Of a DNA stretch of 32,443 nucleotides, positions 4,062 through 23,964 are shown piece by piece. A program made the translations under genes and the position numbers. The first letter of the stretch is position 1; each line of letters opens with the position of its first letter. The stretch is from Buttiauxella sp. A111 (GTDB taxonomy: Bacteria > Pseudomonadota > Gammaproteobacteria > Enterobacterales > Enterobacteriaceae). The DNA is taken from the NCBI RefSeq assembly GCF_014189855.1, contig NZ_BJFN01000013.1, forward strand, positions 1 to 32,443. Direction: 5' to 3'. The notes below the pieces were generated by a model. It was not told where the DNA came from. It made no database searches and saw only the letters and a program-made list of their open reading frames with translations.

Positions 4062-4100
4062 GCCAACCTTTCCGGTTGCAGCCTGAGAAATTAGGCTGAT

Positions 4101-4131
4101 GGCTGGTGACTTTTTAGTCACCAGCCTTTTT
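4101..4131 (+). terminator. Attenuator (partial terminator) between rplL and rpoB
   Basis: A perfect 11-bp stem (GGCTGGTGACT / AGTCACCAGCC) with a TTTT loop and a 5-T tail stands 40 bases after rplL. In E. coli the terminator at this position lets only a minority of polymerases through to rpoBC, setting the ratio of polymerase to ribosomal proteins. As no strong new promoter is evident before rpoB, read-through is presumably required here too. Confidence 0.88.
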
Positions 4132-11400: not shown

Positions 11401-12726
11401 AACTCTGCCGGTAAACTGGTAGTGACTTCTCGTAACACTGAACTGAAACTGATTGACGAATTCGGTCGTACTAAAGAGAGCTATAAAGTTCCTTACGGTG
11501 CGGTAATGGGCAAAGGTGATGGCGAGCAGGTTGCAGCGGGCGAAACCGTAGCAAACTGGGATCCGCACACCATGCCAGTCATCTCTGAAGTAAGTGGTTT
11601 CATCCGCTTTACTGACATGATCGACGGCCAGTCCATTACTCGTCAGACCGACGAACTGACAGGTCTGTCATCTCTGGTTGTTCTGGATTCTGCAGAACGT
11701 ACCGCGGGTGGTAAAGACTTGCGTCCTGCTCTGAAAATTGTTGATGCTCAAGGCAATGACGTACTGATCCCTGGTACCGATATGCCAGCGCAGTACTTCC
11801 TGCCGGGTAAAGCAATTGTTCAGTTGGAAGACGGCATTCAGATCAGTGCGGGTGATGCCCTGGCGCGTATTCCTCAGGAATCCAGCGGTACCAAGGATAT
11901 TACCGGTGGTCTGCCACGCGTTGCGGACTTGTTCGAAGCACGTCGTCCGAAAGAGCCAGCTATCCTTGCTGAAATCAGCGGGATCATCTCCTTCGGTAAA
12001 GAAACCAAAGGCAAGCGCCGTCTGGTAATTTCTCCACTCGATGGCAGCGATGCTTACGAAGAGATGATTCCTAAGTGGCGTCAGCTGAACGTGTTCGAAG
12101 GCGAAGTGGTAGAACGCGGTGACGTTGTTTCCGATGGTCCAGAATCTCCGCATGACATTCTGCGTCTGCGTGGCGTGTATGCTGTGACTCGTTACATCAC
12201 CAACGAAGTGCAGGACGTTTACCGTCTGCAAGGCGTTAAGATTAACGATAAACACATCGAAGTCATCGTGCGTCAGATGTTGCGTAAAGCAACTATCGTT
12301 AGCGCTGGTGGTTCTGACTTCCTGGAAGGTGAGCAGGCTGAATACTCTCGCGTCAAGATCGCTAACCGCGAACTGGAAGCGAACGGCAAGATTAACGTGT
12401 CCTTCACACGTGATCTGCTGGGTATCACCAAAGCCTCTCTGGCAACCGAGTCCTTCATCTCCGCGGCATCGTTCCAGGAGACAACTCGTGTGCTTACCGA
12501 AGCAGCTGTTGCGGGTAAACGTGACGAACTGCGCGGCCTGAAAGAGAACGTAATCGTGGGTCGCTTGATCCCAGCTGGTACCGGTTATGCGTATCACCAG
12601 GATCGTATGCGCCGTCGTGCAGCGGGCGAAGCGCCTGTTGTACCTCAGGTTACTGCTGAAGATGCAACTGCCAGCCTGGCAGAGCTTCTGAATGCCGGTG
12701 GTCTGGGCGGCAACAACAACGATTAA
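8500..12726 (+). CDS. rpoC: DNA-directed RNA polymerase beta' subunit
   Basis: Beta' holds the active-site magnesium and the clamp of RNA polymerase. Translation starts at a GTG ([11 protein letters not shown]), as in E. coli, behind GGGAGC. The product has 1408 residues (E. coli about 1407), the difference lying in the Asn-rich tail GGLGGNNND. Motifs in order: the N-terminal zinc finger [19 protein letters not shown]; the bridge region [19 protein letters not shown]; the absolutely conserved catalytic [22 protein letters not shown]; the trigger-loop region; and the second zinc site with [13 protein letters not shown] strong terminator 20 bases after the stop ends the long rplK-rpoC transcription unit. 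Confidence 0.98.
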
Positions 12727-12831: not shown

Positions 12832-13149
12832 TCAGTTAGCTAATGGCAGGCGGCGATACAATTCAATCATATCTTCGGCTAAATCCTGAATCACCATCGC
12901 ATTCATCAGGTGATCCTGCGAATGTACGGTAATCAAGTTAACTGGAAGTTTACCGGTGCCTTCATCTAACCCGATAAGCTGGGTCTGAATTTTGTGCGCA
13001 TGTTTCACAAACTCACGAGATTCTTCCATCGCTTGTTGAGCCGCTGCGAAATCACCTTTACGCGCCATTTGCAGTGCTGTCAGTGCCTGGCTGCGTGCGC
13101 TACCCGCATTGACCAACAATTCCATGATAATCGTTTCTAAATCTTCCAC
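12832..13149 (-). CDS. PTS lactose/cellobiose-type IIA component
   Basis: The product is a cytoplasmic phosphocarrier that takes a phosphate from HPr and passes it to IIB. It has 105 residues, the size of the ChbA/LacF family (all-helical trimer). The family motif VHSQDHLMNAM places the phosphorylated histidine at His76 and the metal-binding aspartate at Asp79. The N-terminal helix LETIIMELLVNAGSARS and the KAHAHKIQT-like helix (VKHAHKIQTQLIG) are also typical. It follows the IIB gene with a 3-base gap on the minus strand, so IIB-IIA are one transcript, facing away from IIC. The substrate is not decided by this subunit. Confidence 0.92.
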   Translation of the reverse strand: MEDLETIIMELLVNAGSARSQALTALQMARKGDFAAAQQAMEESREFVKHAHKIQTQLIGLDEGTGKLPVNLITVHSQDHLMNAMVIQDLAEDMIELYRRLPLAN

Positions 13150-13152
13150 GTT

Positions 13153-13461
13153 TTACGACTCCATCATTTTCAAAGCTTTATCCAGAACGACATCACCTTT
13201 CATCATTCCGTAATCCATCATATCGATAACTGCCACGGTTTTACCCATCGGCTCTGCGATAGCCTGAAGCTTGGCGTGCTCATATTTAACTTGTGGGCCT
13301 AACAGCACAATATCGGCGGTGTCGATATTGTCTTTGAATTCGGCAACCGGCACTGCCTTGATAGAGACTTCAATACCCTTCTTCTGAGCGGCGTCCTTCA
13401 TGCGTTGGACCAAAATGCTAGTCGACATACCCGCTGCACAACACAAAACGATATTCTTCAT
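13153..13461 (-). CDS. PTS lactose/cellobiose-type IIB component
   Basis: IIB accepts phosphate from IIA on a cysteine and transfers it to the sugar bound to IIC. The product has 102 residues when started at MKNIVLCCAAGMSTS. The active-site loop C-A-A-G-M-S-T-S makes Cys8 the phosphorylated residue (C10 in E. coli ChbB). I chose this ATG because GAGAG stands 7 bases upstream and the family begins here. An in-frame GTG ten codons earlier (MYRTDTESRS) overlaps the predicted promoter. The rest (ADIVLLGPQVKYE, KTVAVIDMMDYGMMKGD) is typical of the ChbB/LicB fold. First gene of the IIB-IIA unit. Confidence 0.92.
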   Translation of the reverse strand: MKNIVLCCAAGMSTSILVQRMKDAAQKKGIEVSIKAVPVAEFKDNIDTADIVLLGPQVKYEHAKLQAIAEPMGKTVAVIDMMDYGMMKGDVVLDKALKMMES

Positions 13462-13472
13462 AGATCTGCTCT

Positions 13473-13493
13473 CAGTGTCCGTTCGATACACTG
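13473..13493. promoter_or_regulatory. Inverted repeat over the predicted IIB start site
   Basis: CAGTGT and ACACTG flank 9 bases around the point where IIB transcription is predicted to begin. It shares the CAGTG half with the palindrome before IIC but has different spacing. It may be a second, weaker regulator site or chance. Confidence 0.25.
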
Positions 13494-13496
13494 ATA

Positions 13497-13525
13497 ATTA
13501 TCCGTGACGCCTCGCTACAACAACC
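13497..13525 (-). promoter_or_regulatory. Candidate promoter of the IIB-IIA unit
   Basis: On the minus strand GATAAT (13502 to 13497; 5 of 6) lies 17 bases after GGTTGT (13525 to 13520), a weak -35. A good -10 with a poor -35 fits an activator-dependent promoter. The CRP-like site upstream is centred about 59 bases before the expected start near 13490, close to the usual -61.5. Confidence 0.42.
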
Positions 13526-13537
13526 GCTTTACGATGA

Positions 13538-13559
13538 TTGTGTGTGAGGTATCACAAAA
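13538..13559 (-). promoter_or_regulatory. CRP-like site 1 (IIB-IIA side)
   Basis: TGTGT-GAGGTA-TCACA at 13541-13556 matches the CRP consensus TGTGA-N6-TCACA at 9 of 10 bases. It lies about 88 bases from the IIB start codon. This predicts catabolite control of the PTS genes through cAMP-CRP. Confidence 0.6.
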
Positions 13560-13612
13560 GAAACTTATCAGGGCTGAAACCGGTTACATTTTTTAGTTTC
13601 CTTGACCACTTT

Positions 13613-13634
13613 GAGTGTGTCGCTGCTCACAAAA
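13613..13634 (+). promoter_or_regulatory. CRP-like site 2 (IIC side)
   Basis: TGTGT-CGCTGC-TCACA at 13616-13631 shows the same 9-of-10 pattern as site 1, 75 bases away. It lies about 80 bases upstream of the expected IIC start site. Two sites with identical half-sites in one divergent gap suggest one activator site per promoter. Confidence 0.6.
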
Positions 13635-13668
13635 TCCGCATATTCCAGACAAACACGTTTGCACTCCA

Positions 13669-13697
13669 TTGACACAAAACGGTGAACTACATAGTCT
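13669..13697 (+). promoter_or_regulatory. Candidate promoter of the IIC-GH4 unit
   Basis: A perfect -35 TTGACA (13669-13674) is followed after 17 bases by TAGTCT (3 of 6). The expected start, about 13704, is the first base of the palindrome described next, so a repressor bound there would block initiation. Confidence 0.5.
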
Positions 13698-13704
13698 TCA
13701 TTCC

Positions 13705-13720
13705 AGTGGTATATACCACT
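13705..13720. promoter_or_regulatory. Probable GntR/HutC-type operator
   Basis: AGTGGTATATACCACT is a perfect 16-bp palindrome 30 bases before the IIC start codon. Its core GTATATAC fits the HutC-subfamily operator pattern GT-N-TA-N-AC. The regulator encoded nearby belongs to that subfamily by its UTRA-type C-terminus. Overlap with the predicted transcription start suggests repression. Binding itself is inferred. Confidence 0.6.
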
Positions 13721-13750
13721 AACACAAAAACCAGCACAGTGAGTGACAAC

Positions 13751-15103
13751 ATGAATAATTTCACTGCATTTATGGAAAGGAAAATATTGCCTCTGGCAAT
13801 GAAGATTGAAGGGAATGATTATCTCTCGGCCATTAAAGATGGCTTTATTCGGATCATGCCATTTCTGATTATTGGTTCTTTCTTTTTGCTGATAGCTAAT
13901 TTGCCTATTCCGGGATATAGCGAATTTATTATTCGAATTTTCGGTGAGCATTTTATTGGGCAATTAAACTATATTCTTGATGCCACTTACTCTGTGATGG
14001 CATTGCTGGTGGTGGTCAGTACCAGTATAAGCCTTGCAAAGCGCTGGCAGTTAAATGAAATATCCTGTGTATTAATTTCACTGGTGGCTTTTTTAATTGT
14101 CACGCCGTTCAGAATACCGCAAGAAAATGGCGGTGCAATTACGGATGTTATTCCGACCTTTTCTCTTGGTGCGCAGGGGCTATTCCTGTCTTTAATTGTC
14201 ACACTAGTGGCGGTTCGGCTCTACAGATTGTTCAACCATCCACGGCTGATGATTTCAATGCCGGATAGCGTCCCGCCAGCGGTAGCCAATAGCTTCAGCT
14301 CGCTCATTCCGTCATTTTTGATTGTTGTTATCTTCTGGCTGCTTCGCCTGGTTTTTGAAATCACGCCGTTTGGTACGGCCCAGGAGATGATTTTCAAAGT
14401 GCTACAAGCTCCGATGATGCACCTTGGCAACACACTACCGTCGCAGATGGTGGCGGAGTTTTTTGTCAGCTTCTTCTGGTTTTTCGGCCTGCATGGCGAC
14501 TCTATCGTGACTGCCATCATGGGGCCAATCTGGCGTTCATTAACACTTGAAAACATGCAGGCAATGAAACAAGGTCTGCCGCCAGTAAACATCATTACCC
14601 AGCAGTTCCGCGATGTATTCTTAATCTGCGGCGGGACTGGTTTTACTCTAGCTATGCTCCTGGTGATGTTGTTCCGCGCGAAGAGCAAACGCATGCGTGA
14701 AATCGCCAAACTTGCCTCTCCAGCCGCTATTTTTAATATTAATGAGCCAATTATATTTGGCGTTCCCATTGCACTAAACCCACTGTTGTTTATCCCATTC
14801 ATCATCGTTCCGGTTGTACTTTGCGTAATAACCTATAGCGCTATGGCATTTGGCTGGCTGCCATTGACATCGGGTCTGGAAATTCCCTGGACTACACCTA
14901 TTTTTATCAGTGGTTTTTTAATCTGCGGTTGGAAAGGCATGTTGTTCCAGGCCATTAACCTCGCGGTCGCGATGACAATTTATTATCCGTTCGTTATGAC
15001 GCTGGATAAACAGTATCTGCGAGAAGAAAACGAGCTGGAAGAAAGTATCGTTAATCAGGATGAAATAATCCTGGGATATAAAGAAGGATTACGTAATGAA
15101 TAA
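13751..15103 (+). CDS. PTS lactose/cellobiose-type IIC permease
   Basis: IIC is the inner-membrane channel of the PTS that binds the sugar and presents it for phosphorylation by IIB. Started at MNNFTAFMERKILP it has 450 residues, like ChbC (about 452). Many membrane helices are visible. Two family motifs are intact: FWFFGLHGD (His248) and FNINEPIIFGVP (Glu332), the counterparts of the conserved sugar-binding His and Glu known from the ChbC structure. An in-frame ATG 23 codons upstream lies before the operator and promoter, so it is rejected. The last 8 bases overlap the GH4 gene (ATGAATAA), showing tight coupling. The gene looks more AT-rich than the core genes around it, in line with an accessory origin. 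Confidence 0.92.
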   Translation: MNNFTAFMERKILPLAMKIEGNDYLSAIKDGFIRIMPFLIIGSFFLLIANLPIPGYSEFIIRIFGEHFIGQLNYILDATYSVMALLVVVSTSISLAKRWQLNEISCVLISLVAFLIVTPFRIPQENGGAITDVIPTFSLGAQGLFLSLIVTLVAVRLYRLFNHPRLMISMPDSVPPAVANSFSSLIPSFLIVVIFWLLRLVFEITPFGTAQEMIFKVLQAPMMHLGNTLPSQMVAEFFVSFFWFFGLHGDSIVTAIMGPIWRSLTLENMQAMKQGLPPVNIITQQFRDVFLICGGTGFTLAMLLVMLFRAKSKRMREIAKLASPAAIFNINEPIIFGVPIALNPLLFIPFIIVPVVLCVITYSAMAFGWLPLTSGLEIPWTTPIFISGFLICGWKGMLFQAINLAVAMTIYYPFVMTLDKQYLREENELEESIVNQDEIILGYKEGLRNE

Positions 15104-16409
15104 TAAATTAAAGATAGTGACTATCGGTGGAGGCAGTTCATATACGCCAGAGATCATCGAAGGCTTTATCCAGCGCTATGCAGAAATGCCAATTAAAGAA
15201 ATCTGGCTCGTGGACGTAGAGGCGGGGCGTGAAAAACTTGAGATCGTTGGCAATCTGGCCAAACGCATGGTTGAAGCAGCGGGCATTGATTGCCAGGTTC
15301 ATCTAACGCTCGACAGGCGCGAAGCGCTCAAAGATGCCGACTTTGTCACTACCCAGTTGCGTGTTGGGCAACTCGATGCACGCATTAAAGACGAACGTAT
15401 CCCTTTGTCGCACGGGCTAATCGGTCAGGAAACAAATGGAGCGGGTGGCCTGGCAAAAGCCCTGCGCACCATTCCAGTTATTCTGGATATCTGTCGTGAT
15501 ATGGAGGAGTTATGCCCTGATGCCTGGCTGATTAACTTCACCAATCCAAGCGGCATCGTGACCGAAGCTGTTATCAAGCACAGCAAAATCAAATGCGTTG
15601 GCTTATGTAATCTTTCACAATCAATGCAGCGCATGGTGGCAGAAATTCTCGGCGTGGATAAATCTCGCTTCCTCCTTCAACTCGTAGGATTAAACCATTT
15701 TCTTTACGGTACCCATGTCTACATGGATGGTAAGGATGTCATGCCTGAGGTGCTGAAAAACCTCAAGTACGACAGCGAACATAAGCCAAAAAACATTCCC
15801 GATATTCCCTGGCTCCAGGAACAAATCCAGCATCTTGGCGTAATCCCTTGTCCGTACCATCAGTATTACTACGCCACCAGTGATGTGTTGGAAAAGCAGC
15901 TTCAGGAATTCGAAGAGCATGGAACGCGCGGGGAAGTGGTGCAGGCGGTAGAGCATGAATTATTCGAACTCTATCGAAACCCACATTTGCATGAAAAACC
16001 AAAACAGCTAGAGCAGCGCGGTGGGGCCTATTACTCAGAAGCAGCCTGCGAGCTAATCAGCGCAATCTATAACGACAAAAATCTCCTGATGACGGTCAAC
16101 GTACGCAACAACGGGGCGATTCGTTCACTCCCGGATAACGTCGCCATTGAAACGACCTGTGTTATTGGGCGCTATGGTGCCATTCCTCTTAATAACGATC
16201 CGTTGCCAGCCACCGTTTCTGGGTTGGTGTCATTAATGAAGTCGTGGGAAGAAATGGCAGTAGAGGCCGCGGTTACAGGTGATTACGGTGCAGCTTTGCA
16301 GGCATTGACGCTGAACCCACTTGTGCCGTCAGGCAAGGTAGCAAAAGTCGTGCTTGATGAATTGCTCGAAGCGCACCGTGAATATCTACCGCAATTCTTT
16401 AAGGAATAA
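15096..16409 (+). CDS. GH4 family 6-phospho-beta-glucosidase
   Basis: GH4 enzymes split sugar-6-phosphate glycosides in the cytoplasm by an unusual oxidation-elimination route needing NAD+, a divalent metal and reducing conditions. The product has 437 residues. The Rossmann start KIVTIGGGSSYTPEI binds NAD. Metal ligands are Cys171 (GLCNLSQ) and His201 (GLNHF). Other family segments are QETNGAGG, NFTNPSG and CPYHQYYY, which probably includes the catalytic tyrosine. The closest known types are CelF/ChbF/LicH, so a beta-linked disaccharide phosphate is likely. It overlaps IIC by 8 bases at the start and the convergent regulator gene by 11 bases at the end. Which sugar it cleaves cannot be told from sequence. 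Confidence 0.92.
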   Translation: MNNKLKIVTIGGGSSYTPEIIEGFIQRYAEMPIKEIWLVDVEAGREKLEIVGNLAKRMVEAAGIDCQVHLTLDRREALKDADFVTTQLRVGQLDARIKDERIPLSHGLIGQETNGAGGLAKALRTIPVILDICRDMEELCPDAWLINFTNPSGIVTEAVIKHSKIKCVGLCNLSQSMQRMVAEILGVDKSRFLLQLVGLNHFLYGTHVYMDGKDVMPEVLKNLKYDSEHKPKNIPDIPWLQEQIQHLGVIPCPYHQYYYATSDVLEKQLQEFEEHGTRGEVVQAVEHELFELYRNPHLHEKPKQLEQRGGAYYSEAACELISAIYNDKNLLMTVNVRNNGAIRSLPDNVAIETTCVIGRYGAIPLNNDPLPATVSGLVSLMKSWEEMAVEAAVTGDYGAALQALTLNPLVPSGKVAKVVLDELLEAHREYLPQFFKE

Positions 16410-17130
16410 GGATTTTTCGGCTGCGCATTCTGAAGAGGTCGCCACGGTTGTAGCTCCAGGAGTAGTTAAAAACCGTGCCGTCCTCAAGCCAGGTGCTTTC
16501 TTTAATGTGCAGCATTGGTGAGTTTACGGGAATTTCGAGCAGTGCCGCCATTACGTCATCAAACAGGCTGGCCCCGACAACGGAGTCCGTGCCGCCGATT
16601 TTTTGCTGGCACTTATCTTCGATAAACGCATACAGAGAGTGGTTTTGCAGTACGTCGTCGTCAATGACATCGACAATCGCCCGCGGAATGTAGCTGTCTT
16701 CGACTAACACCGGCACGCCATCAAACAGGCGAACACGGCGGATGGCGTGAACGGGTTCGGTAGCCGAAACACTAAATTGGTTTGCGAGGTAGTCCCCCGC
16801 AGGTTGCTGGACATGGTAAATCAGGCGGCTGGTGATGGTGACTTTACCACTCAATTCTTTTGTGACGCCCAGCGCGCTGCTTTCCCCGTCAGGGTTGAGT
16901 AGATAAACCGGCGGGGCAAAGGCTCGGTTTACATAAGTGCCTTTGCCAACCACTTTTTTGACCAGGCCTTCCTGCTCCATTTGAGCAATGGCTTTTTGCA
17001 CCGTAGCACGCGTGACCTGGTAGGTTTCCGCCAGTTCGCGCTCAGAAGGGATCAGGGAGCCAACCGGGTACTTTTGGTTCTGAATATCGCTTTTCAGCGT
17101 ATCGCGAATAAGGATGTACACCGGTTTCAT
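16399..17130 (-). CDS. GntR family (HutC/UTRA type) transcriptional regulator
   Basis: This is a DNA-binding repressor with a small-molecule sensing domain. Started at MKPVYILIRDTLKSDI behind GGGGGA it has 243 residues; an ATG 16 codons upstream lacks a ribosome-binding site. The N-terminal winged helix-turn-helix (about 1-68) shows PVGSLIPSERELAETYQVTR and KKVVGKGTYV. The rest (about 85-243) is a UTRA domain, with VHAIRRVRLFDGVPVLVEDS and MLHIKESTWLEDG. UTRA domains usually bind phosphorylated sugars or amino sugars. It is convergent with and overlaps the GH4 gene, and divergent from the SIS gene. The likely target is the palindrome before IIC; no second copy was found in its own 101-base upstream gap. 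Confidence 0.9.
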   Translation of the reverse strand: MKPVYILIRDTLKSDIQNQKYPVGSLIPSERELAETYQVTRATVQKAIAQMEQEGLVKKVVGKGTYVNRAFAPPVYLLNPDGESSALGVTKELSGKVTITSRLIYHVQQPAGDYLANQFSVSATEPVHAIRRVRLFDGVPVLVEDSYIPRAIVDVIDDDVLQNHSLYAFIEDKCQQKIGGTDSVVGASLFDDVMAALLEIPVNSPMLHIKESTWLEDGTVFNYSWSYNRGDLFRMRSRKILIP

Positions 17131-17231
17131 GGTTCCCCCGATAGGGTTGTTAACGAATAAAAGTGCGAGTGTCGGCATGCTAAAGCAATTTTCCGGCGCG
17201 GCGCAAGTTCCATAAGAGGTGGAAAATAAAC
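17131..17231. promoter_or_regulatory. Divergent gap between regulator and SIS gene
   Basis: These 101 bases must hold the start signals of both genes. Ribosome-binding sites are visible (GGGGGA for the regulator; GAGGTGG, a little distant, for the SIS gene). A GTTAAC at about 17149-17154 is symmetric, but I see no convincing -35/-10 pair and no copy of the GTATATAC operator. Confidence 0.3.
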
Positions 17232-18377
17232 ATGTTAAATCATAATGAAGCGTACTGGCAGCAAAAGGGAGCCAGTTTAACCGTTGAAGCCATCGTGGCT
17301 CAGCCGCGTTTATGGCAAGAAGGGCTGGAGCAGATAAAAGCTCAGCAGCCCATTATTGAAGCGTTCTGGAGCAAAAGCGATTCCCACACACGCATTCTCA
17401 TCACCGGAGCGGGTTCCTCGTTGTTGGCCGCACAAGCGAGCGTGAATTGGTTACGTAGTGTCGTACCCAATCACATCGATGTGGTGCCGGCAACGGATCT
17501 GGTACTCATGCCTGAAAGCTTGCAAGAAAATACCGTATTGGTTTCCGTGAGTAGCTCGGGTAACACACCAGAGACAGTTAAGGTTGTGGAGCATGCACTC
17601 GCCGCCAACCCGAAATTGCGCCATCTGGCGGTGACTAACAACGCCAGTAGCCGCCTTGCACAGCTCGCACAGCAGCATACCGAAGGGCTGTTTATCCCGG
17701 TACCAGAAGGCACTTCTAACGGTAGTTTTGCCGCCACTTCTGAATTCACCGTTCCACTTTGGTACCTGATGCTGCTGGTGGCTCCGGCGGGTTGGGCGGA
17801 AGCCGAAAAAGTGCTTCCCGTTTTGCAGCGTGGCATGAACCACTTTTTGACTCACTATGCCGCTGATATCGAACAATGGGCGACGCAGTCACGTAATAAT
17901 GTTGTTGCTGTCGGCTCGTTATCTTTAAAAGCCATTGCCTGTGAAACCAGCCTCAAACTGCTGGAAATGGGCAACGGCAATGTGATGACGGCCTGGCATT
18001 CGATGCTGGAATTCCGCCATGGCCCGAAACTGATTATTAACCGTGATGCTACGATTATTGGTTATCTTGCCGCGCGTCCGGAAATCCACCGTTATGACAT
18101 CGACATGATGACTGAGTTGACACGTGAGCGTAGCGCAGGGGCGCAGGTTATCGCAATCGGCCATGATGCTCTCCCTACGGACGTTAAAGCGGGGGATCGT
18201 TATTTTCATTTTGCCGCTCCGGAACTGGTGGATTACCACGAATCCTTCACGGCATTAATTTATGTGGTGTTCGCGCAACTCGCCGGGCTTTATAGCGCGA
18301 TTGAATTAGGCGTGACGCCAGATACCCCTTCCAGCGACGGTAAAGTGGCTAAGGTAGCCAAAGTGACTGTCTATTAA
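17232..18377 (+). CDS. AgaS-like SIS-domain sugar-phosphate isomerase/deaminase
   Basis: The product has 381 residues with two SIS domains. The first contains RILITGAGSSLLAAQ (about 54-68), VPATDLV and VSVSSSGNTPETV (about 104-116); the second contains ETSLKLLEMG and the EFRHGPK motif (260-266), shared with the isomerase half of GlmS. Length and C-terminus (LGVTPDTPSSDGKV) match AgaS (about 384), which converts galactosamine-6-phosphate to tagatose-6-phosphate and ammonia. Substrate specificity within this family varies (glucosamine, galactosamine, glycated amines), so the exact reaction is open. Its place beside the PTS and GH4 genes suggests it processes the monosaccharide phosphate they release. 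Confidence 0.85.
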   Translation: MLNHNEAYWQQKGASLTVEAIVAQPRLWQEGLEQIKAQQPIIEAFWSKSDSHTRILITGAGSSLLAAQASVNWLRSVVPNHIDVVPATDLVLMPESLQENTVLVSVSSSGNTPETVKVVEHALAANPKLRHLAVTNNASSRLAQLAQQHTEGLFIPVPEGTSNGSFAATSEFTVPLWYLMLLVAPAGWAEAEKVLPVLQRGMNHFLTHYAADIEQWATQSRNNVVAVGSLSLKAIACETSLKLLEMGNGNVMTAWHSMLEFRHGPKLIINRDATIIGYLAARPEIHRYDIDMMTELTRERSAGAQVIAIGHDALPTDVKAGDRYFHFAAPELVDYHESFTALIYVVFAQLAGLYSAIELGVTPDTPSSDGKVAKVAKVTVY

Positions 18378-18385
18378 TTCAAAGG

Positions 18386-18406
18386 TGGGGCGGCGTTACC
18401 GCCCCA
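18386..18406. terminator. Shared hairpin between SIS gene and thiH
   Basis: TGGGGCGG and CCGCCCCA form a perfect 8-bp stem with a 5-nt loop CGTTA. The thiH stop codon lies in the loop, so the stem covers the last thiH codons. The tail is only weakly T-rich on either strand (CCTTTGAATT on the minus), so it may be a modest terminator for both convergent units. Confidence 0.6.
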
Positions 18407-19517
18407 GAAAACTATCCCAATCCTTCCAGACAGGTTGCAAGCCCGAACGTGTTAGGGCAGCTGCGACCTCATTTGGTGTACGCCCGTCGTGCGGTGCAAA
18501 CTGTTCAAGCTCTGGATGATTATCGGCATAGCCTCCCGGCTGAGTTTTGGAAAAGGCGCTGACGTTATTAATCGCGAGCGGAATCATATGATCCCGGAAC
18601 CAGGGGGATTCGCGCGTAGAAAGCGAAAGTTCTACGTCTGGTGACAGTAGACGAAAGGCACATATCACCTGCACCAGTTGGCTTTCCGTCATGATTGATG
18701 CGGGCTCAACACCGCCTGTACAGGGACGTAAACGCGGAAACGAAATCGAATAACGGCTTTGCCAGTAGTTTTGTTGCAGCCACAGCAAATGCTCCGCCAC
18801 CATAAAACAGTCAGTACGCCAGCTATCCGATAAACCAATTAACGCGCCGAGCCCGATTTTATCGATCCCCGCGCGGCCTAGTCTGTCTGGTGTTTCCAGA
18901 CGCCAGAAGAAATCCCGCTTGTTGCCGCGCAAATGATGCTGCGCGTAAACCGCCTGATGATAGGTTTCCTGATAAACCATCACGCCATCCAGCCCCAGCG
19001 TTTTGAGTTCGGCATATTCCTGTTCATCCAGCGGCTGCACTTCCATTTGCAGAGAGCTGAACTGGCGGCGAATGGCGGGGAGGTGCTGACAGAAATAATC
19101 CATGCCCACTTTGGTCTGGTGTTCGCCGGTCACCAACAGCAAATGCTCAAAACCCAGTTTGCGAATTGCCTCGCACTCTCGTTCAATTTCTTGTTCATCC
19201 AGTGTTTTACGTTTGAGCTTGTTACTCATCGAAAAACCACAGTATGTACAATCATTAGCGCAGAGGTTGGAGAGATACAACGGTACGTAAAAACTCACCG
19301 TGTTGCCAAAACGCTGGCGAGTTAATTGCTGTGCCTGCTGTGCGAGAGGTTCAAGATACTGGCTGGCAGCCGGAGAAAGCAGCGCCATAAGATGGTCGCG
19401 GGTGATTTTGTGGGCGCTCAATGCATGCTCCACATCAAGGGCTGTTTTGCTGTTGATGCGTAAAGTGATGTCATCCCAGTCGAGTTCACGCCAGCGATCT
19501 GTGAAGGTTCCGGCCAT
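18396..19517 (-). CDS. thiH: 2-iminoacetate synthase ThiH
   Basis: ThiH is a radical-SAM enzyme that splits tyrosine to give dehydroglycine (2-iminoacetate) for the thiazole ring of thiamine, acting in complex with ThiG. The product has 373 residues (E. coli 377). The [4Fe-4S]/SAM motif CANDCTYC has Cys86, Cys90 and Cys93. Further family features are LLLVTGEHQTKVG, VYQETYH and the C-terminal BATS-like part with SFPRLRPCTGG. Its ATG shares one base with the thiG stop (TAATG). It is the last gene of the minus-strand thiCEFSGH operon, controlled by the TPP riboswitch. Confidence 0.96.
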   Translation of the reverse strand: MAGTFTDRWRELDWDDITLRINSKTALDVEHALSAHKITRDHLMALLSPAASQYLEPLAQQAQQLTRQRFGNTVSFYVPLYLSNLCANDCTYCGFSMSNKLKRKTLDEQEIERECEAIRKLGFEHLLLVTGEHQTKVGMDYFCQHLPAIRRQFSSLQMEVQPLDEQEYAELKTLGLDGVMVYQETYHQAVYAQHHLRGNKRDFFWRLETPDRLGRAGIDKIGLGALIGLSDSWRTDCFMVAEHLLWLQQNYWQSRYSISFPRLRPCTGGVEPASIMTESQLVQVICAFRLLSPDVELSLSTRESPWFRDHMIPLAINNVSAFSKTQPGGYADNHPELEQFAPHDGRTPNEVAAALTRSGLQPVWKDWDSFLGR

Positions 19518-23769: not shown

Positions 23770-23864
23770 TCATTCCAGTAATTATCAGGAAGTGGCTTGT
23801 CAGAACAACGGAGGAGTAATGAATGTGGACCGCCCGCGCACGGGTGAGCCCAAAAGCAGAATTA

Positions 23865-23961
23865 CTCTTGTTCCCTTCGCAGGTATTAGCCTGATCAGGT
23901 TCCGCGGATCCCGAATTAACGGTCTCAGCCGGTGCTTGCGCACTCGGCACTCCGACAAGAA
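23865..23961 (-). ncRNA. TPP riboswitch (THI element) upstream of thiC
   Basis: Reading the minus strand, the aptamer shows the hallmark segments GGCTGAGACC (pyrimidine pocket) and CCTGATCAGGCTAATACC followed by GCGAAGGGAACAAG. Helix P1 can be formed by TTCTTGT (23961 to 23955) and ACAAGAG (23871 to 23865). Binding of thiamine pyrophosphate is expected to switch off thiC. The expression platform (23767-23864) contains AUUACUC, able to pair with GAGUAAU just after the aptamer, and a GC-rich CCCG-TGCG-CGGG hairpin between them. Confidence 0.95.
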
Positions 23962-23964
23962 GAA

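Follow-up and report, generated by a model that had tools for sequence, protein, structure and literature searches.

Six genes encoding a phosphotransferase system (PTS) of the lactose/chitobiose type and its accessory proteins occupy the gap between rpoC and thiH in Buttiauxella sp. A111, within a 32,443-nucleotide stretch of contig NZ_BJFN01000013.1 that is referred to here as the window. rpoC ends at 12726 and thiH lies at 18396–19517 on the minus strand; the six open reading frames (ORFs) between them (12832–18377) are intact, in the place and orientation given by the initial annotation. The minus-strand genes for IIA (PF02255; 12832–13149) and IIB (PF02302; 13153–13461), both of the lactose/chitobiose family, form a pair from which a IIC permease of the lactose/cellobiose family (13751–15103, plus strand) and a GH4 hydrolase similar to 6-phospho-β-glucosidases (15096–16409, plus strand) diverge, the latter two overlapping by 8 bp. 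They are followed by a GntR/HutC regulator with a UTRA domain (16399–17130, minus strand) and, divergent from it, a SIS protein distantly related to AgaS (17232–18377, plus strand). A perfect 16-bp palindrome, AGTGGTATATACCACT, assigned to neither strand, stands at 13705–13720 and is proposed from its sequence and conservation to be the operator of the GntR/UTRA regulator. The more general finding of this analysis is that the IIB-IIA pair resides at this site independently and is more widely distributed than the block formed by the other four genes.

Pfam and NCBIfam profile scores, read against curated cut-offs, bear out the family assignments that had been considered firm. The Pfam models PTS_IIA (107.6 bits against a cut-off of 27) and PTS_IIB (82.6 against 23.6) identify the pair, PTS_EIIC (207.8) and TIGR00410 (427.1 against 236) the permease, two GH4 domains (230.3 and 209.7) the hydrolase, UTRA (115.6 against 23.8) and GntR (59.1 against 27) the regulator, and SIS (67.8) the last product; every Pfam score exceeds its cut-off. 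All six products fall below the NCBIfam equivalog cut-offs of the named families they match (e.g., chitobiose, cellobiose, lactose and trehalose regulators); the nearest miss is cello_pts_IIC, at 427.1 against 434.45, and both IIA and IIC are below the cut-offs of the chitobiose IIA and IIC models. More precise names are therefore unearned, as is that of AgaS for the SIS protein. Three start sites differ from the mechanical ORFs. IIB probably begins at the ATG at 13461 rather than at the GTG at 13491, with orthologues annotated or read as 101 amino acids from that ATG, and the regulator probably begins at the ATG at 17130 rather than at 17178. For IIC, the in-frame ATG at 13751 is preferred over the GTG at 13682 because orthologues align from there and the conserved palindrome falls inside the longer ORF. 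From this start, IIC orthologues are 81–99% identical, and the idea of permease swapping at IIC was dropped on these values.

Among 198 sampled genomes of the family, the IIB search returned 41 at 82% identity or more, the next match reaching only 68%. The pair in these 41 genomes is always beside rpoC, thiH or both: 38 have both flanks, including locus L215, where both flanking genes are broken up, and three have one flank only within the stretch (L194, L204 and L205). The other four genes are missing from 36 of the 41 and present in five, and none of these five sampled genomes carries the block without the pair. Buttiauxella, counted apart from this sample, repeats the pattern: 6 of 12 genomes searched lack IIC, GH4, GntR and SIS yet keep IIB-IIA at 95–100% identity. 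Queries with the four block proteins found no match in 42 pair-only stretches, and GH4 only in the 43rd, the Sebaldella metagenome-assembled genome (MAG) L014. Comparison of gene order between rpoC and thiH, suggested at the outset as a check, shows the six-gene locus to recur, in five of these 41 genomes, with the block missing from the other 36. The description of the locus as a self-contained module was too strong, and so was linkage of all six genes as one unit: the block is found only with the pair, but the pair is mostly without the block.

In some of the 36 genomes, the gap holds nothing beyond the pair. In others of the 36 it contains a GGDEF gene, a DcuA/DcuB transporter or ATP-binding cassette transporter genes, or else a cupin accompanies a UlaA-type EIIC, or an AraC-type regulator an alpha/beta hydrolase; ten ORFs of these kinds were scanned. 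For instance, the order in Klebsiella pneumoniae is thiH, diguanylate cyclase, IIB, IIA, dcuB, rpoC, and in Citrobacter freundii it is thiH, cspG, IIB, IIA, rpoC; both records are filed as plasmids but bear chromosomal genes. At L189:4028–5684, which was scanned, and similarly at L190, rpoC and the pair are separated by genes for a cupin protein and for a permease of the EIIC-GAT (UlaA) type.

The pair appears functional, stand-alone copies included. The P-loop of the window IIB reads CCAAGMSTS, and CCAAGMSTS[M/I]LVQRM occurs in 52 of 52 loci, all of which also have an identical IIA region, NLITVHSQDHLMNA. The phospho-accepting residues of these families, His in the IIA region and Cys in IIB, are present in the window and at every one of these loci. 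When the window is compared with two Buttiauxella genomes that lack the module, nonsynonymous divergence (dN) is 0.008 for IIB and 0.004–0.008 for IIA, against synonymous divergence (dS) of 0.43–0.51 and 0.50–0.61, respectively. No earlier description of the rpoC–thiH pair, nor of the six-gene system that had been put forward as undescribed, appeared among the literature matches listed, as judged by title and start of abstract in a search covering only a minor part of the subscription literature. EtcABC of K. pneumoniae was rejected as the pair, its EIIA being of the fructose-mannitol type (PMC6629953). The passages of the GapMind paper that answer to four search terms hold nothing on the pair (PMC9007349).

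What the pair might serve is suggested by a surplus of permeases over IIA genes. The window genome encodes seven full lactose-family IICs above cut-off and only two IIA genes, that of a chb-type operon and that of the window; within the stretches fetched, besides the chb and window IICs, two permeases have IIB only and three have neither arm. Nine full IICs are encoded by the module-less genome G019, two with their own IIA, three with IIB only and four with neither. Across 18 genomes, all picked as pair carriers and eight of them Buttiauxella, 101 full IICs were counted: a search of 5 kb around each showed another IIA for 28 and the pair itself for 2, and no IIA gene for the other 71. In the same set, the rpoC–thiH IIA has no IIC neighbor in 16 of 18 genomes, compared with 1 of 28 other IIAs; the remaining 27 are near a full IIC, and the 28th has an IIC-like match, below cut-off, at a distance of about 2 kb.

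The same holds in the 198-genome sample. Of the 41 genomes with the pair, 40 have more IICs than other IIAs, as do 14 of the 55 remaining genomes in which any IIC or IIA occurs (median difference 3 against 0). Omission of the pair's own IIA gives the pair group an advantage of one; once it is included, 34 of the 41 genomes and 14 of the 55 have a surplus (medians 2 and 0). The one genome of the 41 that falls outside the first count is 49% complete. At the level of genera, a surplus is seen in 27 of 28 with the pair and 9 of 44 without it. The simplest reading of the whole is that the pair is probably a communal IIA/IIB that supplies IIA-less permeases in trans. Weighing against it are the form of the comparison, which is collapsed to genera rather than corrected by a species tree and counts at most eight scored IIC candidates per genome, and the surplus in those 14 pair-less genomes, which reaches at least two in four of them (G035, G103, G141 and G173). 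The pair is therefore not the only possible donor, and another IIA, such as ChbA, can serve some permeases.

Taken further, this point becomes an alternative in which the role of general donor falls to ChbA/ChbB or some other complete system and the rpoC–thiH pair serves just one or two specific IICs. The window genome does carry a chb-type operon, named by gene order, and EIIA cross-talk is documented in Bacillus subtilis (PMC6148471); with the surplus in some pair-less genomes, these facts lend the alternative some weight. We nevertheless consider it unlikely, as the IIC surplus goes with the pair. If the communal reading is true, it explains why many enterobacterial β-glucoside permeases have no adjacent IIA gene, a single knock-out would be expected to disable several sugar systems together, and annotating PTS operons as self-contained calls for caution.

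Arrangements of this kind have precedents in Gram-positive bacteria. In Lactococcus lactis, PtcA and PtcB work with CelB and BglS, IIA and IIB being encoded apart from the IIC and phospho-glycosidase that they serve (PMC4286628). The pair would have in common with PtcAB this separation from the IICs it serves, and the regulator is separate in both. Unlike PtcAB, the pair described here is fixed at rpoC–thiH in many Enterobacteriaceae, where many IICs lack IIA, and its sharing is a proposal. The EIIA-deficient permeases of B. subtilis are likewise served in trans, as proposed for the pair, although mainly glucose-family IIAs are involved there (PMC6148471) and the present case is a lactose-family pair without a permease beside it.

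Wherever the four-gene block occurs with the pair, its arrangement is constant. All six genes recur with unchanged order and orientation in 15 rpoC–thiH loci, so that the set is real and conserved; in Citrobacter amalonaticus, IIC and IIB are separated by an additional GGDEF gene. These loci comprise six from Buttiauxella (including the window), four of Superficieibacter type (two by name and two assigned through the tree), three from Atlantibacter, that of C. amalonaticus and that of Escherichia coli Ec1120. The SIS gene might have proved to be mostly unaccompanied by PTS genes at this site; its orthologue, at 70% identity or more, occurs in 5 of the 198 family genomes, and in all five PTS genes are present at rpoC–thiH. 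An order-wide SIS search of 345 genomes, with at most five candidates scored per genome listed, found the window genome alone. In E. coli, matches covering 80% or more of the IIB-IIA query came from 3 of 5426 genomes, each of which has the complete six-gene set at rpoC–thiH. Shared protein accessions suggest that the three represent one lineage. A megablast search with the 5.5-kb stretch against E. coli genomes and plasmids gave no match, and distant and protein modes were needed to find these loci. The GH4 gene of all three (L242, L244 and L245) is interrupted by an internal stop and annotated as a pseudogene.

Phylogenetic comparison indicates that the block is old at the rpoC–thiH site. For the same 15 loci, a tree of the block, which includes the E. 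coli GH4 unaltered, internal stop and all, has 10 of 12 splits in common with a tree of the flanking ThiH, IIB and IIA; the two conflicting splits have support below 80 in the block tree and of 80 and 85 in the flank tree. This agreement led us to discard the idea that the block arrived recently by horizontal transfer. On a tree of 55 loci, from which L194 and L215 are left out for want of a usable ThiH, presence of the block needs nine changes, seven of them forced by well supported branches. The count cannot separate gain from loss, and the congruence of the trees favors loss.

Such age, together with the company of all six genes in 15 of 15 module loci, is what would be expected if they formed a plain six-gene system, one regulon for one β-disaccharide, with lone IIB-IIA pairs elsewhere as remnants awaiting loss. 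The stand-alone pairs do not look like decay: they are what 36 of 41 pair genomes have, their motifs are kept, and dN is very low in the two genomes compared. In C. amalonaticus, moreover, the 513-amino-acid product of the GGDEF gene is encoded beside the block, parting the pair from the palindrome. We regard this explanation as improbable.

Regulation of the block can be proposed from the palindrome. Its core, TGGTATATACCA, lies 37–47 bp before IIC in 15 of 15 module loci and between IIB and thiH in 0 of 40 pair-only loci, one of which has a different match to a looser pattern. The 14-mer of the palindrome occurs exactly at one place in the window genome, and matches with up to three mismatches (175) are no commoner than those of a control pattern (217). 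The palindrome resembles operators of the NagR/DasR type, and among proteins of solved structure YvoA is the closest to the regulator. One UTRA regulator had been placed over all six genes; the position of the GGDEF gene between palindrome and IIB in C. amalonaticus means that one regulator need not govern them all.

The block looks like a β-glycoside-6-phosphate pathway, perhaps ending in an amino-sugar deaminase. The nearest solved relatives of the GH4 protein, 5c3m and 1s6y (E < 1e-170), are both named 6-phospho-β-glucosidases. A CN[V/I]P motif in GH4 enzymes is a mark of specificity. The window enzyme has CNLS at residues 171–174, common only to the module GH4s and that of Sebaldella L014, which is 83% identical and offers no substrate clue; among 103 other GH4 rows, in which some genes are repeated, CNVP or CNIP occurs in 70 and P at the fourth place in 93. 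In an alignment of the SIS protein with GlmS of the window genome, EFRHGP and a C-terminal Lys coincide, and the Glu and Lys concerned are catalytic residues of GlmS. The SIS protein is 31% identical to the AgaS-type copy of the window genome, and in a family genome the gene of a 48% relative forms a same-strand run with those of a galactosamine-type PTS and a HutC-type regulator. In an E. coli study, agaS is proposed from knock-outs to encode a galactosamine-6-phosphate deaminase/isomerase (PMC3668189). Because of the GlmS alignment, the likeness to AgaS, the neighbors of the 48% relative and this proposal, a β-linked substrate with an unacetylated amino sugar is our best guess, although we rate it at somewhat below even. 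If right, it is a first substrate hypothesis for the six-gene locus of Buttiauxella, Atlantibacter, Superficieibacter, C. amalonaticus and a rare E. coli lineage.

The two enterobacterial loci closest to this one, chb and aga, are different from it, as had been stated. The chbBCARFG operon, of which the window genome has its own copy at L236 (by gene order), has a GH4 hydrolase and PTS components of the same three families, its IIA, IIB and IIC being 45%, 42% and 34% identical to the window proteins; unlike chb, the window has a UTRA regulator, an extra SIS gene and no deacetylase. The aga/gam operon with AgaS has a SIS enzyme of the same superfamily, whereas the window combines this with a lactose-family PTS and GH4 in place of a mannose-family PTS. 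A further UTRA regulator–IIC–GH4 unit, with no IIA or IIB nearby, is found in G019 (L225:3094–6521). Its GH4, and those of L117, L118 and L123–L125, have CSGA where most relatives have CN.P, so their chemistry may differ.

We hold with moderate confidence that the rpoC–thiH gap contains two functional layers, a communal IIB-IIA pair and an IIC-GH4/UTRA/SIS pathway. In the first, phosphate would pass from HPr to His of IIA and then to Cys of IIB, which would dock with several lactose-family IICs that are encoded elsewhere without their own IIA, and in some cases without IIB too; this communal role would be the reason the pair is kept, local IIC or not. In the second, IIC would borrow the adjacent IIB-IIA to import and 6-phosphorylate a β-linked disaccharide or glycoside, and GH4 would cleave the imported 6-phosphate. 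The UTRA regulator would sit on the palindrome before IIC until released by a sugar phosphate, and the SIS protein would turn the freed hexosamine-6-phosphate into ketose-6-phosphate and ammonia. Three observations run counter to the second layer. The SIS protein scores 229.7 bits against an AgaS-family (TIGR02815) cut-off of 529.2, so that deaminase activity is a guess, and other SIS chemistry, such as that of the NagS dehydratase, is possible. The palindrome is found between the regulator and the SIS gene in 0 of 15 module loci, which leaves its control of SIS unsupported. Finally, the block has no deacetylase gene, so an N-acetylated substrate would be unexplained.

A link between the pair and cyclic di-GMP (c-di-GMP) is suggestive. 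A dCache-GGDEF gene like that of L196 lies upstream of IIB on the same strand in 17 of 52 loci, one of them that of K. pneumoniae, where it is annotated as a diguanylate cyclase; the distance to IIB is 150–201 bp in 16 loci and 339 bp for one broken copy, and the domains were confirmed by Pfam in four. Two Buttiauxella genomes also encode IIC-EAL fusions (PF02378 and PF00563; L235:2379–4508, L227:1757–3955 and L228:1790–3856), in which a permease-like domain is joined to a c-di-GMP phosphodiesterase domain. Both features would suit a pair that acts in module-less genomes mainly as a PTS signal relay, with targets such as these proteins, rather than as a transport arm. This is doubtful: no dCache-GGDEF cyclase is found in the window, 35 of 52 stretches likewise show none, among them the 11 from Buttiauxella (the thiH side of L194 lies outside its stretch), and the surplus of ordinary IIA-less IICs accounts for the pair unaided. 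The communal reading can also be extended speculatively. As a family-wide integrator, the pair would power IIA-less β-glycoside permeases and report their combined flux, via its phosphorylation state, to c-di-GMP signaling through the upstream dCache-GGDEF cyclase in several genera and the IIC-EAL phosphodiesterases in Buttiauxella; we think this a long shot.

Other features were noted in passing. At L230:3801–7875 of the window genome, which was scanned, and at L221 of G019, an Asparaginase_2 (PF01112) enzyme and an M17 aminopeptidase are encoded between a lactose-family IIC and IIB; the unit adjoins apparent tripartite ATP-independent periplasmic (TRAP) transporter genes, and the substrate of such a PTS could be a glycosyl-asparagine or a glycopeptide. 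Upstream of rpoC, window positions 4066–4127 (plus strand) match the Rfam family P26, named for Pseudomonas, at 72.7 bits against a gathering score of 36. An ordinary thiamine pyrophosphate (TPP) riboswitch, presumably that of the thi operon, lies at 23855–23964 on the minus strand.

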